In this document: piece after piece, positions 9,252-17,237 of the stretch
Layout: each line of letters starts with the position of its first letter
How positions within the stretch are numbered: the stretch's first letter is position 1
The notes under the pieces: model-generated
Seen by the model: the letters and a program-made list of their open reading frames with translations, nothing else
The model's database searches: none
What the model was told of the DNA's origin: nothing
Position numbers and translations under genes: made by a program
From: Bacteriovoracales bacterium
Lineage (GTDB): Bacteria; Bdellovibrionota; Bacteriovoracia; Bacteriovoracales; Bacteriovoracaceae
NCBI GenBank assembly: GCA_026713835.1
Contig: JAPONP010000152.1
Location: 1 to 42,732 of the forward strand
Direction of reading: 5' to 3'
Length of the DNA stretch: 42,732 nucleotides

Positions 9252-10724
9252 TTGGATGCCATGGATGTTTGCCCCCCCTCCCCTTCGGAACCTGCGCCCA
9301 TCACCTTCGGCGATCAAGTCTTTCCTCACCGGAAGGTCTTTTTTAAGACCTACGGTTGCCAGATGAACCATCACGATACGGAAAGGATGCTCTCTCACCT
9401 CAAAAGACTCAATTTCTACCCCACTGAAAATCGCAAGGAAGCGGATCTCATCCTCTTCAATAGTTGTGCCATTAGAGATTTGGCCAATCAAAAATTCTAC
9501 TCCCATGTGGGGGAAACCAAGGCGAACAAAGGGGGAAAAAAGGGGGTCAAGGTCGGAGTGGGGGGTTGTATTGCCCAGGTGGAGGGGAAGCGCCTTCTCA
9601 AGCGCTTCCCCCATGTGGATTTTGCCTTCGGCACGGACGTGATCGATTCCATCAATGATTTTGTCTATAGGGCCTATAGCGGAGAGGACAAATTTTCCGT
9701 GACCACTTGGGATAGAGCGAGCGATTACTCCATCGAAACCAAGATCACCCACGGCCAACCCCTGGCCTTCGTCAATATCATCAAAGGTTGCGATAAGTTT
9801 TGCTCCTATTGCATCGTTCCCTTCACCAGGGGAAGGGAAAAATCGAGAACCATCGCCGAGGTGGAAGACGATGTGAGGCGGTTGGTGGAGTGCCATGGAG
9901 TTCAGGGCATCACTTTGCTCGGGCAAAATGTAAACTCTTTTGGCAAAGAACATCGCGAATCCCTGGCCGATCTTATCCGTCGCCTCGATAGGATCGAAGG
10001 CCTAGAGATCATCCGCTATACGACCTCCCATCCCTACGATATGGGTGATGACCTCATTGCGGCCCATGGGGAGTGTCATAAATTGGCCGATCACGTTCAC
10101 CTTCCCGTGCAAAGCGGCTCCAATACGGTTCTGGCGAGAATGCTCCGGGAATACACGGTGGAGCATTTCTTGAGCCTTTGCGACAAACTCCGTAAGGCCA
10201 ACCCCAATCTCACCCTTTCTACGGACATCATCGTGGGTTTCCCCAATGAGACGCAAGAGGAGTACCGAGACACCTTGGCCCTTTTGGATCGAGGGAAATT
10301 CGATTTTATCTACGCCTATACCTTTTCTCCCAGGAAAGGAACAAAGGCCGCCCGAATGAACGATTCCCTAAGCGACGAGGAGAGGGGACGGAGGTTAAGG
10401 GAATTGCAAAAGCATCAACTCCGCATTCAAGAAAACCTTAGAAAACCTCTCGTGGGGAAAGTTTTTCGCATTCTCGTGGAAAAAAAGGGTGTGATGAATG
10501 GGGTTGAAAGGTGGCAAGGAAGGAGCAACTGTATGCGCATCGTTCATATCGATCCTCCCCAAAGAAACGATGTCACTACGACTTTTGCAACTTCCGATCT
10601 TGAGTGGCATTGGGTGGATGTGGAGGTCACATCATCCACGGCCCTTTCTTGTCGGGGGAGGTTGCTTAAAGATTACGGCAAGACATTGCCTTCGGGATTG
10701 TCGGCCAAAATCTTATCGGCGTAA
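9252..10724 (+). CDS. miaB: tRNA-2-methylthio-N6-dimethylallyladenosine synthase
   Basis: Radical-SAM methylthiotransferase of 490 residues that acts on i6A37 of tRNAs. The N-terminal UPF0004 domain carries three cluster cysteines: TYGCQMN (Cys36), CAIRDLANQ and GGCIAQ. The radical-SAM motif GCDKFCSYCIVP supplies the CxxxCxxC cluster; LPVQSGSNTVLARM and STDIIVGFPNET follow, then a C-terminal TRAM region. MiaB is preferred to RimO because of the CAIRDLANQ and TYGCQMN forms. The start is TTG 9252, five bases after AGGAG (9242-9246); ATG 9261 is also possible but its spacing is longer. Its 3' end overlaps the convergent glycosyltransferase by 52 bases. Confidence 0.94.
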   Translation: MDAMDVCPPSPSEPAPITFGDQVFPHRKVFFKTYGCQMNHHDTERMLSHLKRLNFYPTENRKEADLILFNSCAIRDLANQKFYSHVGETKANKGGKKGVKVGVGGCIAQVEGKRLLKRFPHVDFAFGTDVIDSINDFVYRAYSGEDKFSVTTWDRASDYSIETKITHGQPLAFVNIIKGCDKFCSYCIVPFTRGREKSRTIAEVEDDVRRLVECHGVQGITLLGQNVNSFGKEHRESLADLIRRLDRIEGLEIIRYTTSHPYDMGDDLIAAHGECHKLADHVHLPVQSGSNTVLARMLREYTVEHFLSLCDKLRKANPNLTLSTDIIVGFPNETQEEYRDTLALLDRGKFDFIYAYTFSPRKGTKAARMNDSLSDEERGRRLRELQKHQLRIQENLRKPLVGKVFRILVEKKGVMNGVERWQGRSNCMRIVHIDPPQRNDVTTTFATSDLEWHWVDVEVTSSTALSCRGRLLKDYGKTLPSGLSAKILSA

Positions 10725-11737
10725 CCCGCCTCCCTTCTCCTTTTGTTCCCCATAAGGCCACATAAAAATCCAAGCCCATAGCTTAGGTGAATGAGAACCA
10801 CCAGGGGAAGAACCCAAAGGGAAACGGACATTTTTTTTGTCCGAATCCCGGCGTGGGCGAATGTCAAAAGGACATGACCTCCGTAGAGAAGGAGGGGGAC
10901 AAAAATCCCTAGGGGGAGGCGTGCCCACGAGAGAACGGCAAAGGCCGAAAGGAACACGAGATAGAGGACAAGGGCCGGGGGGATCAGGAACAGAGGGTGG
11001 AAAAGGCCTTGAAATTCGAGGATACTCTTTATCCTATAAACGCCGCTTAAAAAAGTCGATTGAATGACCTTGGAAATACGATCCTTTTTGAAATGATAAA
11101 CATAGAGCTTGGGATCATAGACGATCTTTTTTTGGCCTCTTTTAAGTTCAGAAAGTAAGACGTTTTCTTCATTTCGGTAATAGAGATCATTAAAGCGAAG
11201 GCCCTCCTCAAAAATCTCTCTTTTTATCCAGAGATGGCACAAAATCAATTCATGTTCATCTCCTTTTCTCAAAGAACCGCTTTGGTGGTGGCGATGATGG
11301 GTGTGTCCGGTGACAAGTGGATGGGATTGGCAAAAGGAGTAGGCCTTTTGAAAGGAGCTTTCAGCGGGATATCCCATTTCGGGGCCCCCCAACACATCCG
11401 GCCCATGAGTATTCAGGGTTTTTAAGGCCTTGGTCAAATAATGTTTGGGCAATCTCACATCGTCGTCTAAAAAGAGGAGCCAATCTCCGCGAGCTTTTTC
11501 AACGGCCTTATTTCTGGCATGGGCTGGACTCTTTTGAGCGCAGTGCAAGATCACAAGGCGTTTATCCCGAAGGCCCTCGAGATAGATTTTGGTTTTTTCA
11601 TCATCGCCGTTTATAATGAACAAAACTTCTATGGAATCAAAAGGGTCAAGTTCTTCCATCCTTTGCGCAAGACTTGACCAAAGTTTTCTAAGAAGTGTGG
11701 TGCGTTTGAATGTGGGGACGATGATTGAAAGTTTCAA
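10673..11737 (-). CDS. Family 2 glycosyltransferase with C-terminal membrane helices
   Basis: Inverting GT-A glycosyltransferase of 354 residues. The N-terminus is the GT2 signature (KLSIIVPTFKR), followed by AHARNKAVEKARGDW and the metal/nucleotide-sugar motif FLDDDV. After about residue 245 there are three or four hydrophobic segments, so the enzyme is probably anchored in the inner membrane. It begins with TTG 11737, only 14 bases from the start of the divergent HprK-like gene, so the promoters must lie within the opposing genes or within that tiny gap. Context points to a surface polysaccharide or glycan. Substrate unknown. Confidence 0.85.
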   Translation of the reverse strand: MKLSIIVPTFKRTTLLRKLWSSLAQRMEELDPFDSIEVLFIINGDDEKTKIYLEGLRDKRLVILHCAQKSPAHARNKAVEKARGDWLLFLDDDVRLPKHYLTKALKTLNTHGPDVLGGPEMGYPAESSFQKAYSFCQSHPLVTGHTHHRHHQSGSLRKGDEHELILCHLWIKREIFEEGLRFNDLYYRNEENVLLSELKRGQKKIVYDPKLYVYHFKKDRISKVIQSTFLSGVYRIKSILEFQGLFHPLFLIPPALVLYLVFLSAFAVLSWARLPLGIFVPLLLYGGHVLLTFAHAGIRTKKMSVSLWVLPLVVLIHLSYGLGFLCGLMGNKRRREAGYADKILADNPEGNVLP

Positions 11738-11751
11738 GGGGTGGGCCCGAC

Positions 11752-12765
11752 ATGGGAAATCATCTTTATTTTAATTTCTACGGTGTCTGGGCCCATGTGG
11801 ATTCTCCCTGCCCCGAACTGCTCCAAAGGATTGAGTTGGATTTTTCCCATTTCCACTCCCCTCATCTTCTCCCAAAAAGGCCCCATTATCAATTTTATTG
11901 CGAAAAATCGGCCCCTCCATGGCCCAAAATTCCGGCCCTTGCGGTGAGTTTCCAGTCGCCGGGCTCCATGACTTATGATCGAGGGACAAAGAGATATAAC
12001 GATTATTACGGCAAGGCCCTTTCCATCTACGACTACGAGATGGAGGAAGGAAAAATCTATGCTAAGGATTTAGAAAGACTCCACGAAATCTCCTATTTGA
12101 TGATTTTGTCGCGAGTGGGAAAGAGACTCGATATGATGGGAATGCACAAAGTTCACGCCTTTGGCATCATCAAAAATCGAACGGCCCTTTTAGGAATCAT
12201 GCCCATGAAGGGAGGCAAGAGTACTCATTTTTTGGAATTTATAAAATGCCCAAAGGTTTCGATTCTTTCCGATGACACCCCTTTGGTTTCTCGCATGGGA
12301 AAAGTGTTGCCCTTTCCCATTCGAGTGGGGCTTGAGGAGGGAAATCGGATCGATGCTGTAAATGAAGCCTTTGTTTACCAACTCAACCGACAACATTACG
12401 GGAAAAAAACGCTCGTTTCTATGAAAGGCATCCCCAATCCCGTGGGAGGAGATTACGATAGGCTCATTCTCATAAAAGGGGTTCGATTTAACGGGCCTGG
12501 ATGTGAGATTAAAAAATTATCTAAATGGTCCATGGGAATTGAACTTTTCAAATTTCAAGTCATCGGATGGGGGCTTCCCGTGATTTTTGAATACTTTTGG
12601 GAAAGTGGAGTCTTGGATTTTGCAAGAAAGTCTAAAATCGCCCTTTCCCGTCTTTTGGCATCCATCCTTTTATTATGGAGATCGAAAACCTATACTGTCT
12701 TTTTGGGTACAGATCCTCAAAAAAATGTCGAGGTCATAAGTGAGAGGCTTTTAAAACATGAATGA
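11752..12765 (+). CDS. HPr-kinase-like (HprK-related) protein
   Basis: A 337-residue protein resembling the C-terminal kinase domain of HPr kinase/phosphorylase. A P-loop GIMPMKGGKST lies at 148-158, followed by ILSDDTPLV (an acidic pair, as in HprK). The N-terminal 130 residues are specific to this protein. HprK-related kinases occur in peptide-modifying clusters such as lasso peptides, where some phosphorylate a precursor Ser; that is known of the family, not shown here. The start is ATG 11752 after AAGGGG; a TTG at 11725 is open but would overlap the divergent glycosyltransferase. Its stop overlaps the ABC-2 permease start by eight bases. No HPr/PTS gene is present, so a role in sugar regulation is unlikely. 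Confidence 0.72.
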   Translation: MGNHLYFNFYGVWAHVDSPCPELLQRIELDFSHFHSPHLLPKRPHYQFYCEKSAPPWPKIPALAVSFQSPGSMTYDRGTKRYNDYYGKALSIYDYEMEEGKIYAKDLERLHEISYLMILSRVGKRLDMMGMHKVHAFGIIKNRTALLGIMPMKGGKSTHFLEFIKCPKVSILSDDTPLVSRMGKVLPFPIRVGLEEGNRIDAVNEAFVYQLNRQHYGKKTLVSMKGIPNPVGGDYDRLILIKGVRFNGPGCEIKKLSKWSMGIELFKFQVIGWGLPVIFEYFWESGVLDFARKSKIALSRLLASILLLWRSKTYTVFLGTDPQKNVEVISERLLKHE

Positions 12766-13528
12766 TTTTCGCAAACTCTTTTGGGCCCAGGTTCCCTATC
12801 TCACTTTGGCCAATATGAAGTCTAGATATCGCAAGACATTTGCCGGATTTATTTGGGTGGTGATGAATCCCATCCTCCTCTATGGGGCCCAAAGTTTGGC
12901 CTTCAAAACTTTTTTGCGCCTAGAGCTTCCAAATTTTTTCACTTATCTACTCGCCGGTCTTTTGCCTTGGATTTTTATCATCCAGACGGCGGATATGGCC
13001 ACACCGCTTTTAGTCACCAACGGCCATTTTCTCAAGGCCATGAAAGTTCACCCTCTCGTTCTCCTTTTGTCTCAAGTTTTGGATAATTTCATCAATTTCT
13101 CTTTCGCCTTTATCATCCTTCTCATTCCCGTATGCTTTGCGGATGGAGTCTCATGGCATGGACTTTTTTTCCTTCCCATAGGTCTCTTCATTCTGATTTC
13201 CGGAGTGATCGGAATGAGTTGGCTTTTGGCCATCCTTAATATCTTTTATCGGGATGTTCGCTATGTGGTGAGCTTTCTCACGGGGGTCATGTTTTTCTTG
13301 ACCCCCATCTTCTATCCGGTGAGTTACATCCCCGAAAAATACCGTTGGATGGTGAGCATCAATCCTTTTTACAATCTTATTCAACCCGTTCGTTCGACTC
13401 TCTACCAATTTGACTTGGAAAATATGCTCAAGGCCTTTGGCATCGGACTTGGATGGTCCGGAGGGCTTCTCCTTTTAGGGGCCCTTTATTGGAAGAAGAA
13501 AAAGAATGTGATTTATTACCATATCTAA
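12758..13528 (+). CDS. ABC-2 type polysaccharide/teichoic-acid exporter permease (Wzm/TagG-like)
   Basis: Inner-membrane permease of 256 residues with six hydrophobic helices. The N-terminus (LTLANMKSRYRKTFAGFIWV) and the IFYRDVRYVV and FYPVSYIPEKYR segments are typical of O-antigen/teichoic-acid ABC exporters. It pairs with the ATPase 15 bases downstream and overlaps the HprK-like gene upstream. The exported molecule would be a lipid-linked glycan if it behaves like Wzm; the flanking peptidase and ATP-grasp genes leave a peptide or modified polymer open. Confidence 0.87.
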   Translation: MNDFRKLFWAQVPYLTLANMKSRYRKTFAGFIWVVMNPILLYGAQSLAFKTFLRLELPNFFTYLLAGLLPWIFIIQTADMATPLLVTNGHFLKAMKVHPLVLLLSQVLDNFINFSFAFIILLIPVCFADGVSWHGLFFLPIGLFILISGVIGMSWLLAILNIFYRDVRYVVSFLTGVMFFLTPIFYPVSYIPEKYRWMVSINPFYNLIQPVRSTLYQFDLENMLKAFGIGLGWSGGLLLLGALYWKKKKNVIYYHI

Positions 13529-13543
13529 ATTTAAAGGATTAAC

Positions 13544-14302
13544 GTGCCCGATACTATCTTACAGATTCAAAACCTCAATTTAAAATACGAATTGGAATTT
13601 CATCGTAGTGATTCTGTGCGAGATATTTTTGTTGGAATGATTAAAAATCCACTGCAAATGTTGTTTGGGGACAAGGATGTTTTCCACATTATCAAAGATT
13701 TTAATTTGAATTTGAAAAGAGGGGAAAGACTTGGAATTATCGGTGTCAATGGGACGGGTAAGACTTCCCTTTGTCGCTGTATCGCAGGAATGTTACGACC
13801 CGAATCCGGGGAAATCACTATCAAGGGGCAAATGAGATCCATCTTTGATACAAATATCGGCATCCAACCCGAATTGACGGGTAAAGAAAATGCGATATTA
13901 CTTGCCCGCTTTATTTTTCCGGAAGCCAAAAGCGATGAGTTAAAAGAGATCGTTCGCGAATCCTTGGAATTTAGTGAGCTTGGAAAGTTTTTGGATATGC
14001 CATTTAAAAACTATTCAAAGGGTATGCAGGCCAAGCTAGGCCTTTCTCTCATTACGGCAAAACCTACGGATTTATTGATTTTGGATGAGGTTTTTGATGG
14101 TGCAGATCATTTTTTCCAGCAAAAAATATCTCAAAGAACATTGGAGATGATAGAAAAATCCGGTGCCGTTATCTTTGTTTCTCACAATTTTTCACAGCTT
14201 GAGGCGGTTTGCAATAGAATGATTGTCATGGAAAAACAAAACATTCTTTACGACGGCAATGTTTTAAAAGGGATTGAATATTACAAATCCCTAAAACGAT
14301 GA
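13544..14302 (+). CDS. Wzt/TagH-like ABC exporter ATPase
   Basis: ATPase of 252 residues for the Wzm-like permease. Walker A is GVNGTGKTS (67-75), the signature is YSKGMQAKL (157-165), Walker B is LLILDE (177-182), and the switch histidine is in FVSHNFSQLEAV. The degenerate signature YSKGM is characteristic of the O-antigen/teichoic-acid subfamily. It ends right after the nucleotide-binding domain, so it lacks the carbohydrate-binding C-terminal domain of classic Wzt. The GTG start follows AAAGGA. Neighbours on both sides are tightly spaced. Confidence 0.9.
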   Translation: MPDTILQIQNLNLKYELEFHRSDSVRDIFVGMIKNPLQMLFGDKDVFHIIKDFNLNLKRGERLGIIGVNGTGKTSLCRCIAGMLRPESGEITIKGQMRSIFDTNIGIQPELTGKENAILLARFIFPEAKSDELKEIVRESLEFSELGKFLDMPFKNYSKGMQAKLGLSLITAKPTDLLILDEVFDGADHFFQQKISQRTLEMIEKSGAVIFVSHNFSQLEAVCNRMIVMEKQNILYDGNVLKGIEYYKSLKR

Positions 14303-14306
14303 AATA

Positions 14307-14696
14307 GTGAAATTGAGTGATGACGAGTTCTGGCTTCACCAAAAAAGAATCAAACGTGGCGATCATATCAACATAGAAATCGTATCCGAGAGTATGTCTC
14401 CTTTGATAAATAAAGGGGACATACTTCGAGTCCGTCATAAAAAGCTCTTTTCCCCTTTTGATATAGTCGTCTATCGCCATATTGACGGAACCCTTATTTG
14501 TCACTATATATGGGAAAGATCAAGGCTGGATCAAAAGACTTGGCTACTTCGTTCCATTAAGGGAACGGCTTTTGATCTACCTGTACGAGAGAATCAGATA
14601 TTGGGCCATATCACCCATAAAAAAATAGGCCTTAAAATGAAGATCGCTATTTTTTTAAAATTATTTGCCCTTAAAGTAAAAAGAGGACTCCTTTGA
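14307..14696 (+). CDS. S24/S26-type peptidase, Ser-His (SipW/Sec11-like) signal-peptidase fold
   Basis: A 129-residue protein with the signal-peptidase/LexA-type core: VSESMSPLINKGD puts the nucleophile at Ser29. Where bacterial signal peptidase I has Lys, this protein has ICHYI with His66, followed by a KGTAFD segment (Asp90). That is the arrangement of the SipW/Sec11 branch; this comparison is inference. There is no N-terminal membrane anchor, only a hydrophobic-basic C-terminal tail. In a cluster with an exporter it may mature a peptide or protein substrate. The GTG start lies five bases after the ATPase stop, and its TGA overlaps the next TTG start. Confidence 0.65.
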   Translation: MKLSDDEFWLHQKRIKRGDHINIEIVSESMSPLINKGDILRVRHKKLFSPFDIVVYRHIDGTLICHYIWERSRLDQKTWLLRSIKGTAFDLPVRENQILGHITHKKIGLKMKIAIFLKLFALKVKRGLL

Positions 14697-15670
14697 AAGT
14701 AATACATATTCTTTTCATCGACCCTCTCGAAAAACTATCCATTCAAAAAGACGGCACTTTGCTTTTGGCCCATACTTTAAGTGAAATGGGACGCAAGGTT
14801 TATCTCCTCTTTGAAGATGATTTTTATATCCTGTCAAATACCCCTCCCAAAGTTAGAGTCTTTGAGTTTACCTCTCGCTTGGAAAAGAGTAGTTTTCATC
14901 TTTCTTCCTTTTCCCTATCAAATGAAAAAACCCTTTCACTTGGGCAAGATGTTATATTTCATATTCGCCTTGATCCGCCTTTTGACGGGCGCTATTTAAA
15001 ATATCTATGGATGATAGACTTCCTTAAAAATTTTGGAGTAAAATTCTTCAATGACCCTCGAGGAATTTTATTCTTTAATGAAAAGATTTCGAGTTTCTTA
15101 TCCAATTCCTCTCTTCCCTCCTATATAGGGCGCTCTTTTAAAGAATTATTGACCTTTACAAATGATTTAAAAGAGCAGGGATTTACCGATTTGATGCTCA
15201 AGCCACTTGACCTCTATCAAGGCATGGGAATAGAAAAGGTTTCCTTAGAGGATCAATCATTTCTCAAAGAGGCCTTTCAAAAAAAAGTGAAGGCCTCTCA
15301 TTCCCCCGTTCTCGCTCAACCTTTTCTGAAAAAGATCAAAGAGGGGGAGGTTCGGGCCGTCTTTTTTGGAAAGAGGATCTTGGGTACTATTCTTAAAATT
15401 CCTCCCGAAGGATCGTTCTTGGCCAATATCGCTCAAGGGGCCTCTTGCTCTGCTATAGAACTCCCCGAAGAGATTGCACAAGAATGTTCTAAGATCGGTG
15501 ACGCCCTTCTCCCTTATGGGCTTTATTGGTTGGCCTACGATATCCTGGACGGCCATATCAATGAAGTCAACGTCACTTGTCCCGGACTCTTGGTGGAGGT
15601 TTCTTGCGCCCTCAAACGCAACCTGGCCTTGGATTTGGTACAAGAAATGGAAAAGGTCGTTTTAGGATAG
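14693..15670 (+). CDS. Glutathione-synthetase-like (GshB family) ATP-grasp ligase
   Basis: ATP-grasp carboxylate-amine ligase of 325 residues, close to GshB (about 315) in length and motif order: the N-terminal FIDPLEK, IRLDPPFDGRY, FNDPRGILFFNEK, LKPLD, AQPFLKKIKEGEVR, then GSFLANIAQGA (cf. the glycine-rich GshB loop) and the metal-binding INEVNVTCPG. No gshA is in the window, so it may instead join an amino acid to a product of this export cluster. The start is TTG 14693 with AGAGGA six bases upstream, overlapping the peptidase stop. The final codons and TAG fall in a family-A-like repeat (15659-15677) that also holds the stop of the convergent lipoprotein gene. Confidence 0.8.
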   Translation: MKVIHILFIDPLEKLSIQKDGTLLLAHTLSEMGRKVYLLFEDDFYILSNTPPKVRVFEFTSRLEKSSFHLSSFSLSNEKTLSLGQDVIFHIRLDPPFDGRYLKYLWMIDFLKNFGVKFFNDPRGILFFNEKISSFLSNSSLPSYIGRSFKELLTFTNDLKEQGFTDLMLKPLDLYQGMGIEKVSLEDQSFLKEAFQKKVKASHSPVLAQPFLKKIKEGEVRAVFFGKRILGTILKIPPEGSFLANIAQGASCSAIELPEEIAQECSKIGDALLPYGLYWLAYDILDGHINEVNVTCPGLLVEVSCALKRNLALDLVQEMEKVVLG

Positions 15671-15677
15671 GCCCTTA
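15659..15677. repeat. Family-A-like repeat end at two convergent stop codons
   Basis: GTTTTAGGATAGGCCCTTA resembles the family-A end at 16665-16684 with about three mismatches. It supplies TAG to the GshB-like gene (plus) and TAA to the lipoprotein gene (minus). The similarity is short, so some doubt remains. Confidence 0.5.
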
Positions 15678-16526
15678 TCTTGGAATATCTTTTGTTTCGT
15701 CCGTGGCCAAATGAAGTTGAATACCCCAACAAGAGGCATTGCTTCGTCCATTGTAACCACTCCGAGATCCCCAAACGCTGGTATTGGCTTCGGGACAATC
15801 TCCTCTCGTGCGATAGATGCAATCGTAGTTCCAACGAACATCATGTATTTGGAGAACAAATGGTTCTGAGGGACTGTTTCTTGGGATGGATGTGAATTGA
15901 AGAACTTCCGAACACTCCCCCACCTTTACATTATTAAATGTCAACTCTTGCAAAGGGGCCGAGGAATTTTTGCCTCGAATGGAGACTTTGAGAGAAAGTC
16001 TGGTGTAATCAAATCTATTTTTACATTCTTCGTATTTCGTTCGACGCTTCCATTGTTGCTCTAAGGCCCTGTCAAGTCTTCCTTTTGGAGGGGCCGATTC
16101 AGCTAAAACCCTAAGATGAATCCTGGAATCTGAAACCAATATCCCCTGAGTCGCATTACTTTCTCTCATATGCTTTCGAGAGTCCCATTGAGGTGTGCTA
16201 CTCGAGCCATTTCCGGCCCCCTTAGCACTCAATCGATAATAGTCTATAACCTGATCTGCATCGGCCACACCTCGTTTTGTACAATTTTGGGTCGAAGACC
16301 CTGTGGTCTGTACGGTTTTGGGGGCGGGCAATGGATCGTTCGGGTCGGGATCAGTCGGATTTGTGGGGTCGGTGGGGTTCGTGGGGTCGGTGGGGTTCGT
16401 AGGATCCGTTGGGTTGCTGGGGTCAGTAGGGTTCTCGGAACTGTAGTTATTGACCGTTTTTCGCGAAGGGATACAACTATTCGTTATAAAAAAGATGGAC
16501 AATATGATTATTTTAAATAACTTCAA
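15675..16526 (-). CDS. Predicted lipoprotein with Asn-Pro-Thr-Asp-Pro-Thr repeats
   Basis: Lipoprotein of 283 residues. The signal peptide ends at ITNSC (lipid-anchored Cys18). Residues about 34-66 are tandem copies of NPTDPT, a rigid Pro-rich stalk that would hold the C-terminal domain away from the membrane. The domain after residue 70 is basic and contains several Cys that could form disulfides. No family is recognised. It converges on the GshB-like gene with four bases between the stops. The repeat unit is exactly 18 bp in places, so stalk length may vary by slippage. Confidence 0.75.
   Translation of the reverse strand: MKLFKIIILSIFFITNSCIPSRKTVNNYSSENPTDPSNPTDPTNPTDPTNPTDPTNPTDPDPNDPLPAPKTVQTTGSSTQNCTKRGVADADQVIDYYRLSAKGAGNGSSSTPQWDSRKHMRESNATQGILVSDSRIHLRVLAESAPPKGRLDRALEQQWKRRTKYEECKNRFDYTRLSLKVSIRGKNSSAPLQELTFNNVKVGECSEVLQFTSIPRNSPSEPFVLQIHDVRWNYDCIYRTRGDCPEANTSVWGSRSGYNGRSNASCWGIQLHLATDETKDIPR
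16335..16440. repeat. 18-bp tandem repeat encoding the lipoprotein stalk
   Basis: On the plus strand the unit reads approximately GTCGGTGGGGTTCGTGGG. Two or more near-perfect units are flanked by degenerate copies. It encodes the NPTDPT stalk of the lipoprotein on the minus strand. Confidence 0.8.
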
Positions 16527-16733: not shown

Positions 16734-17237
16734 ATGATCATCTCTAAGCGAGATTTTGGGAAATTTTTTAAAGACTCGTATCCACTTGTTTATTCCTTGA
16801 GCTTTATTTTGGTTCCGGAAACCCTTCAAGCTGAGCAAATTTGTCTGGATTCTCTCGAATTATTGGCCCTCAAGGAAAGAAAGTTGATGATGAGGTTGGC
16901 CCATACCAAATCCCAAAATACCCAACCCTTGTGGGATCAATTGAAAAAAAATCATCTGAAATACGTTTGGATATTGGGAATAAAGCGTTTTACTCAACTT
17001 AAAGGAAATACCGAGACCTGGCATGAAAAGCCGGATGAGTTCTTTTTTACGCAAAATGTTTTGGAACGAGGAATTTTGTTTCTCAAAACAAGGCTTAGAT
17101 TATCTCTAAGTGATATCGAATTTATCACGGATTGCGATCGATACAAAATTTTGTCTTATTTATGCAAATCCAGAGACGATCTTCTTTGGGAATCTCATAA
17201 AAGAAATCTTTCTCTTCCACAAGTTATTGGGAATTAA
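16734..17237 (+). CDS. Diverged ECF-type RNA polymerase sigma-like factor
   Basis: A 167-residue protein with the layout of an extracytoplasmic-function sigma factor, but diverged. Residues about 9-60 resemble region 2 (FKDSYPLVYSLSFILVPETLQAEQICLDSLELL), with LKYVWILGIKRF as the later helix. Residues about 108-155 resemble region 4: LERGILFLKTRLRLSL, then SDIEFITDCDRYKI as helix-turn-helix, then LCKSRDDLLW. The next gene encodes a zinc-finger protein of anti-sigma type, which supports the reading. Whether it still binds core polymerase cannot be told. The start ATG follows AGGAAAAGG. The assignment rests on pattern and context, not strong identity. Confidence 0.6.
   Translation: MIISKRDFGKFFKDSYPLVYSLSFILVPETLQAEQICLDSLELLALKERKLMMRLAHTKSQNTQPLWDQLKKNHLKYVWILGIKRFTQLKGNTETWHEKPDEFFFTQNVLERGILFLKTRLRLSLSDIEFITDCDRYKILSYLCKSRDDLLWESHKRNLSLPQVIGN

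Follow-up and report, generated by a model that had tools for sequence, protein, structure and literature searches.

Gene content of the locus

We analyzed a gene cluster, centered on an HprK-like protein and a Wzm/Wzt exporter, in a Bacteriovoracales bacterium of the Bdellovibrionota, a relative of the predatory Bacteriovorax group (assembly GCA_026713835.1; 2.34 Mb in 235 contigs, 99% complete). The window is the whole 42,732-nucleotide stretch examined, contig JAPONP010000152.1 (C152). The original prediction joined five plus-strand genes at 11752-15670 into one export and modification cassette, in which a glutathione synthase-like protein, GshB, served as a ligase. As judged from sequence comparison, the true unit is formed by the GT2 glycosyltransferase gene and the genes for the HprK-like protein, Wzm, Wzt, and the S26-like protein (10673-14696), without GshB. 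The genes of the locus are as follows.

10673..11737, minus strand: GT2 glycosyltransferase with a membrane segment at its C-terminus, encoded divergently from the HprK-like gene (Pfam Glycos_transf_2, E 2e-20)
11752..12765, plus strand: HprK-like protein with a PEPCK-type P-loop fold, predicted kinase (AlphaFold2 fold and conserved P-loop; without a family model)
12758..13528, plus strand: Wzm-type ABC-2 permease (ABC2_membrane PF01061, E 3.9e-13)
13544..14302, plus strand: short Wzt-type ATPase of 252 amino acids (ABC_tran PF00005, E 1.2e-20)
14307..14696, plus strand: S24/S26-fold protein, predicted small peptidase with an archaeal-type Ser29/His66 pair (Peptidase_S24 1.9e-5, TIGR02228 4.3e-7)
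14693..15670, plus strand: glutathione synthase GshB, bystander (GSH-S_ATP PF02955 1.5e-22, GSH-S_N PF02951 4.5e-15)
15675..16526, minus strand: lipoprotein with PTDPTN repeats, GshB synteny block, outside the module (hidden Markov model from 15 relatives, 8.7e-42)
16734..17237, plus strand: conserved protein, GshB synteny block, outside the module (hidden Markov model from 13 relatives, 1.2e-27)

The five plus-strand open reading frames (ORFs) lie where they were predicted to overlap or nearly touch, with successive gaps of -8, +15, +4, and -4 bp, and 14 bp separate the GT2 gene from the HprK-like gene. Pfam matches likewise confirm the ABC-2 permease, Wzt-like ATPase, S24/S26-type, and glutathione synthetase-domain assignments. 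The HprK-like ORF encodes 337 amino acids from the ATG at 11752, with a possible alternative start at TTG 11725. Divergent GT2 and HprK-like genes whose starts lie some 10-45 bp apart, or overlap by longest-ORF starts, occur in many genera (window:11737-11752; L106, L112, L113, L115, L118, L139, L154), with hardly any promoter space between them.

Recurrence of the module

Two sets of genomes were compared. The family set comprises 24 genomes of the Bacteriovoracaceae and Halobacteriovoraceae (Bdellovibrionota). The wider set was drawn from 84,980 species genomes, which were scanned starting from the conserved P-loop, and only the best 80 loci were kept, so that this list of HprK-like loci is not exhaustive. 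The 80 loci belong to Bdellovibrionota, Deltaproteobacteria, Acidobacteria, Elusimicrobia, Omnitrophota, Planctomycetes, Actinobacteria, and others, and across these phyla the neighbors of the HprK-like gene are mostly glycosyltransferases, PMT_2 proteins, and ABC2_membrane proteins. The neighbor survey excluded three small ORFs and a dozen very long ones, and PqqD is consequently under-counted in it.

The GT2 gene adjoins the HprK-like gene in all seven family relatives that have the latter and lies within 100 bp of it in 34 of the 80 wider loci. A Wzm homolog is present in 13 of the 80, against 0.33 expected at the genome-wide rate, the loci not being independent of each other. In the family set, all seven genomes with an HprK-like gene are among the nine of 24 with a Wzm ortholog (Fisher p 1e-4; p 1.5e-3 when limited to genomes at least 90% complete). 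Since two YbbA-type ATPases were in the training set of the Wzt profile, it also caught proteins of this type, and Wzt counts were used only where Wzm is adjacent.

Individual loci reproduce parts of the arrangement. The same order as in the window, minus-strand GT2 followed by plus-strand HprK-like, Wzm, and Wzt genes, is found in L176 (Oligoflexia), and Wzm/Wzt adjoin the HprK-like gene in L107, L138, and L140. L109 has Wzm-Wzt-S26 in the order of the window, and in L096, L099, L100, and L103 S26 directly adjoins Wzm/Wzt. Finally, a recurrent block (GT4 and u54 on the plus strand, S26 and GT2 on the minus strand, HprK-like and TMTC-like on the plus strand) links S26 to the HprK-like gene. 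The proposed joint function of the five plus-strand genes is thus supported for the HprK-like, Wzm, Wzt, and S26 genes and extends to GT2; it is not supported for GshB, which belongs to an ancestral synteny block.

A trio of TesA/YbbA/FtsX-like genes (window:294-4293) lies about 6 kb from the GT2 gene, and in L139, L151, L152, and L155 such a trio stands directly beside a GT4-S26-GT2-HprK block, hinting at an old shared synteny.

The HprK-like protein

HprK is a member of the PEPCK-like P-loop kinase superfamily. The window protein has no match in Pfam, NCBIfam, or PHROGs, and a profile of its family found no direct match among the sequences of solved structures. Its AlphaFold model (mean predicted confidence, pLDDT, 88) shows a PEPCK-like P-loop kinase fold, and the best Foldseek match in the PDB is ATP-PEPCK (E 2e-9, TM-score 0.58). 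Among 69 relatives the P-loop GGK, R245, and R300 are conserved in 69/69, and S173 and D175, which form a conserved acidic SxD motif, in 65/69 each. The protein is predicted to be a kinase.

Some members of the family are weakly similar, mostly around the P-loop, to the HprK-related kinases A and B (TIGR04352, TIGR04355; best E 1e-4). The relatives, however, score no higher than 21.4 bits where the cut-off is 200, no score at all is obtained with the window protein, and the gene neighbors differ. Neither the HprK-like family nor the S26 protein has relatives in the plasmid collection. Literature searches pairing HprK with polysaccharide clusters returned nothing.

The exporter and the S26-like protein

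The Wzm and Wzt genes stand side by side. Their nearest NCBIfam families are the galactan Wzm (2.2e-17, 63.5 bits against a cut-off of 380) and the galactan Wzt (1e-45, 155.8 bits against a cut-off of 400); all curated exporter subtypes compared, that is, galactan (NF050108/NF050109), TagH, and KpsM, score far below their cut-offs with the window proteins. At 252 amino acids, Wzt is too short for a C-terminal carbohydrate-binding domain. The pair resembles ABC-dependent glycan export of the galactan type, in which Wzt lacks this domain, in that an ABC-2 permease and a short ATPase are encoded beside glycosyltransferases: GT2 is adjacent here, and GT2 and GT4 enzymes dominate the neighborhoods. 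The window system differs from galactan-type export by the addition of the HprK-like kinase and the S26-fold protein, neither of which, to our knowledge, is known from ABC-dependent glycan export systems.

A kinase coupled to Wzm/Wzt glycan export is shared with the kinase-terminated O-antigen systems, exemplified by WbdD of E. coli O9a (PMC3482155) and the methyltransferase-kinase of Klebsiella O7 (PMC11231755). Those kinases, however, have eukaryotic-like or AmiN-like folds rather than the PEPCK/HprK fold, the Wzt of terminated systems carries a carbohydrate-binding module for which the window Wzt has no room, and the window system contains no methyltransferase.

The S26-like protein had been described as a small signal-peptidase-fold protein with a Ser29/His66 pair, and both points stand. 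Ser29, Met30, Pro32, Asp52, His66, and Gly100 are invariant in 17 aligned homologs, and Foldseek matches the AlphaFold2 model (pLDDT 95) to the LexA C-domain and to signal peptidases. The Peptidase_S24 score is above the Pfam cut-off, and the best NCBIfam match, the archaeal signal peptidase TIGR02228, is at 29.9 bits below its cut-off of 51.85. On this basis a small peptidase is predicted.

Partner genes elsewhere in the genome

In relatives, the Wzm/Wzt loci also hold GT4 glycosyltransferases, carbamoyltransferases, radical SAM/SPASM proteins, and the family u14, which has no Pfam match and was called nucleotidyltransferase-like from its RNS...SDxD motif. GT4, u14, and the TMTC-like family u13 are present in most Wzm-positive genomes, this one included, and in none of four Wzm-negative genomes. 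In the present genome, GT4 lies with u21 on contig C67; contig C76 carries u14 together with sugar genes and a radical SAM protein, C214 a fragment of u13 (a TMTC-like GT-C glycosyltransferase), and C235 a carbamoyltransferase. Because the partners sit on these four contigs, the module appears to be split over the genome, with the window holding its kinase-export part. Further, in 22 loci an ORF with a nucleotidyltransferase motif lies no more than 3 kb from the HprK-like gene (22/318 near ORFs against 1/256 distant ones).

Proposed product: a phosphate-modified glycan or glycoconjugate

We suggest that this recurring and previously undescribed kit probably serves to assemble and phosphorylate a surface sugar polymer, or a sugar-decorated peptide, and to export it. 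The cargo most likely carries a glycan, since glycosyltransferases dominate the neighborhoods and the exporter is nearest to the galactan Wzm/Wzt. In the more specific form that we favor, at roughly even confidence, the genes at 10673-14696 would be the local part of a dispersed surface-glycan or glycoconjugate pathway with synthesis, phosphorylation, and ABC export. At the inner membrane, glycosyltransferases, among them the window GT2 and the GT4 of C67, would build and extend a lipid-linked glycan; the HprK-like kinase would then place a phosphate on an acceptor hydroxyl, of a sugar or of the carrier, and the nucleotidyltransferase-like protein of C76 would probably modify this phosphate. 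Wzm/Wzt would export the product, and the S26-like protein may trim a peptide or protein belonging to the pathway.

Several observations weigh against such a pathway. The exact order GT2, HprK-like, Wzm, Wzt, S26 was seen in the window only, and a single pathway is deduced from co-occurrence rather than linkage because the other glycan genes are on other contigs. It is also hard to see what a soluble S26-fold protein would do in the synthesis of a pure glycan. Moreover, an HprK-like kinase, an archaeal-type signal peptidase, and a nucleoside triphosphate (NTP) transferase together form a core set of the LPP (linear polyphosphorylated peptide) pathway (PMC13381572), and several related loci contain PqqD genes.

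A possible alternative: a phosphorylated and glycosylated peptide

These last points bring in a tentative second explanation, by analogy with the LPP ribosomally synthesized and post-translationally modified peptides (RiPPs) of Bacillota: the product of the module may be a ribosomal peptide, or a small protein, that is both phosphorylated and glycosylated. The HprK-like kinase would phosphorylate Ser; the nucleotidyltransferase and glycosyltransferases would add sugars to the phosphorylated Ser; the S26-like protein would remove a leader presented by a PqqD-type RiPP recognition element (RRE); and Wzm/Wzt would export the product in place of an MsbA-like pump. LPP clusters comprise an archaeal-type signal peptidase, an RRE, an HprK-like kinase, an NTP transferase, and an exporter, inside capsule loci, and the kinase and NTP transferase pair tailors both paeninodin-like lasso peptides and LPPs (PMC13381572).

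With the LPP and paeninodin-like clusters the module shares the HprK-like kinase and the archaeal-type signal-peptidase fold, both at the superfamily level only; the archaeal signal peptidase is also the best NCBIfam match of the S26-like protein. An exporter and the frequent siting within polysaccharide loci are common to both as well; u14 on C76, outside the window, is a candidate counterpart of the NTP transferase, and the HprK-nucleotidyltransferase pairing in 22 loci fits the same scheme. PqqD (PF05402) is encoded near the HprK-like gene or Wzm in L095, L096, L107, L125, L176, L221, and others, directly after the HprK-like gene in L107. L221 encodes, one after the other, radical SAM, PqqD, a small S74-domain protein, and a TMTC-like protein, and in L125 PqqD and S74 form a single polypeptide; in the relatives, the small S74-domain protein encoded beside PqqD may be the substrate.

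In the window, however, there is no PqqD or precursor gene, and intergenic gaps of at most 15 bp could not hold one. Sampling of roughly 0.47 Mb from other contigs, a fifth or so of the genome, likewise yielded no PqqD or S74 protein. The LPP leader motif YxxPxVLxHQ occurs in no ORF of the window or the loci, the exporter is an ABC-2 Wzm/Wzt rather than MsbA-like, the neighborhoods are dominated by glycosyltransferases, and PqqD is found in a minority of the 80 loci. We rank the peptide second because the window and the sampled contigs lack PqqD and S74 proteins and a precursor gene would not fit into the cassette. The suggested search for a PqqD-like gene or small ORF nearby was negative in the window and positive beside the same families in relatives. 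With PqqD and radical SAM genes next to these families in relatives, the proposed polymer or peptide, modified by phosphorylation and trimming before its export, may still be right, but no RRE or precursor was found in the window itself.

The small S74 proteins belong to a radical SAM-PqqD-Peptidase_S74 module seen at L221:6917-9116, L096:11860-14246, L125:3316-4113 (PqqD and S74 fused), and L095:8392-9393, and share the N-terminal pattern FGGIxEFNLxEIExExLNDSIYLDVFAGSD. Since Pfam finds a Peptidase_S74 chaperone domain in them, they are not plain precursor peptides in which an FGGI motif recurs; such a protein resembles a substrate guided by an RRE, with an auto-processing trimer chaperone attached. 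Separately, pilin-like proteins with class III signals, several of them with long fiber bodies and S74 chaperone ends, are encoded beside the TMTC-like GT-C and HprK-like genes (L013:10600-13880, L016:15626-17542, L101:4949-7714, L107:2033-7007, L121-L128, L221:9311-10000), and could possibly be glycosylated fibers of predatory bacteria. It is rather unlikely, though worth stating, that Bdellovibrionota have an RRE-guided phospho/glycopeptide pathway in which Wzm/Wzt, and not a peptide pump, secretes a small protein modified by the kinase and the nucleotidyltransferase, with self-chaperoned S74-domain substrates in relatives and a possible link to the surface fibers of predatory bacteria.

A possible regulatory role

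Compared with the modified glycan or glycoconjugate that we favor, it seems improbable that the HprK-like and S26-like proteins regulate glycan synthesis or export, by phosphorylation or proteolysis of a pathway protein, instead of modifying the cargo. The HprK superfamily does contain a regulatory protein kinase, and the S26-like model is nearest to self-processing domains of the LexA/UmuD type; the recurring pairing of the HprK-like gene with nucleotidyltransferases and its adjacency to glycosyltransferases, not regulators, nevertheless suggest biosynthesis.

GshB as a bystander

Full-length GshB orthologs (38-50% identity) are present in 19 of the 24 family genomes. There, the genes upstream of GshB usually encode a PF10023 aminopeptidase lipoprotein and a barrel-like protein, and those downstream a lipoprotein on the opposite strand and a small protein on the plus strand. 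The downstream half of this block is retained in the window, as profiles built from 15 and 13 relatives, with the window's own copy excluded, match 15678-16526 (8.7e-42) and 16734-17234 (1.2e-27). The upstream half is absent and the cassette occupies its place, so that GshB adjoins the cassette because its former upstream neighbors were replaced. One protein query located no copy of the PF10023 aminopeptidase elsewhere in the genome, which alone does not prove its absence. The lipoprotein at 15675-16526 on the minus strand carries a run of PTDPTN repeats and is conserved beside GshB in relatives.

In the tree, the window GshB groups inside the family clade (support 96/97). It shares both glutathione synthetase domains (PF02951, PF02955), over their cut-offs, with the glutathione synthase 1GSA, which it matches over 300 residues (phmmer E 2.9e-20), but scores 144.4 bits against the cut-off of 272 of the NCBIfam glutathione synthase equivalog. 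This shortfall is a trait of the lineage, as the one family ortholog tested is also under the cut-off (151.3 bits). The absence of gshA, noted in the original prediction, is true of the window and not of the genome, where gshA (PF04262, E 3e-152) is found at C194:38074-39180, not adjacent to GshB. As GshB is the sole GSH-S_ATP match in the genome and gshA is present, it is needed for glutathione. Sequence comparison thus indicates that GshB is the lineage's vertically inherited, ordinary glutathione synthase, which tracks gshA and not the cassette. Among the family genomes (G000-G024), gshA is of the PF04262 type in 11 and of the PF08886 type in 11, never both in one genome.

The original prediction had allowed that its five-gene cassette would be accidental if its genes were scattered in close relatives and the ATP-grasp protein grouped with housekeeping GshB beside gshA; for the GshB gene this is essentially what was found, though gshA lies elsewhere in the genome. 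Membership in the cassette is rejected on the grounds of synteny, distribution, and the presence of gshA, and with it goes the proposed ligation by a GshB-like enzyme. That GshB is a dedicated ligase is hardly credible: the S26-like and GshB genes overlap by 4 bp on the same strand and may therefore be co-transcribed, but GshB stands in a different conserved context in 19 relatives, of which 15 and 13 share its downstream neighbors, is found in none of the 80 loci around HprK-like relatives, and is required for glutathione.

Other features of the window

Two adjacent related ORFs lie at window:37641-39976, the second MnmA-like (MSGGVDSSVAALLLKEQGHEV) and the first with a similar altered motif (MTGGLASTVAAFLLKGQGF). 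A tandem pair of related response-regulator-like genes is located on the minus strand at window:23856-25509.

Implications

The module appears to be an ABC-exported glycoconjugate system varied by the addition of an unnamed family of predicted kinases. This P-loop family, which lacks any database model and has members in Bdellovibrionota, Acidobacteria, Elusimicrobia, and Omnitrophota, is now linked with glycosyltransferases, nucleotidyltransferases, and ABC exporters of glycans. Should the exported glycan be the substrate of the kinase, this would be a further, unrelated route by which ABC-exported polymers acquire phosphate; should the substrate be a peptide, phosphorylation of the RiPP type would extend to Wzm/Wzt exporters. 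Relatives of the Halobacteriovorax type are culturable, so that both the glycan and the peptide are open to experiment.

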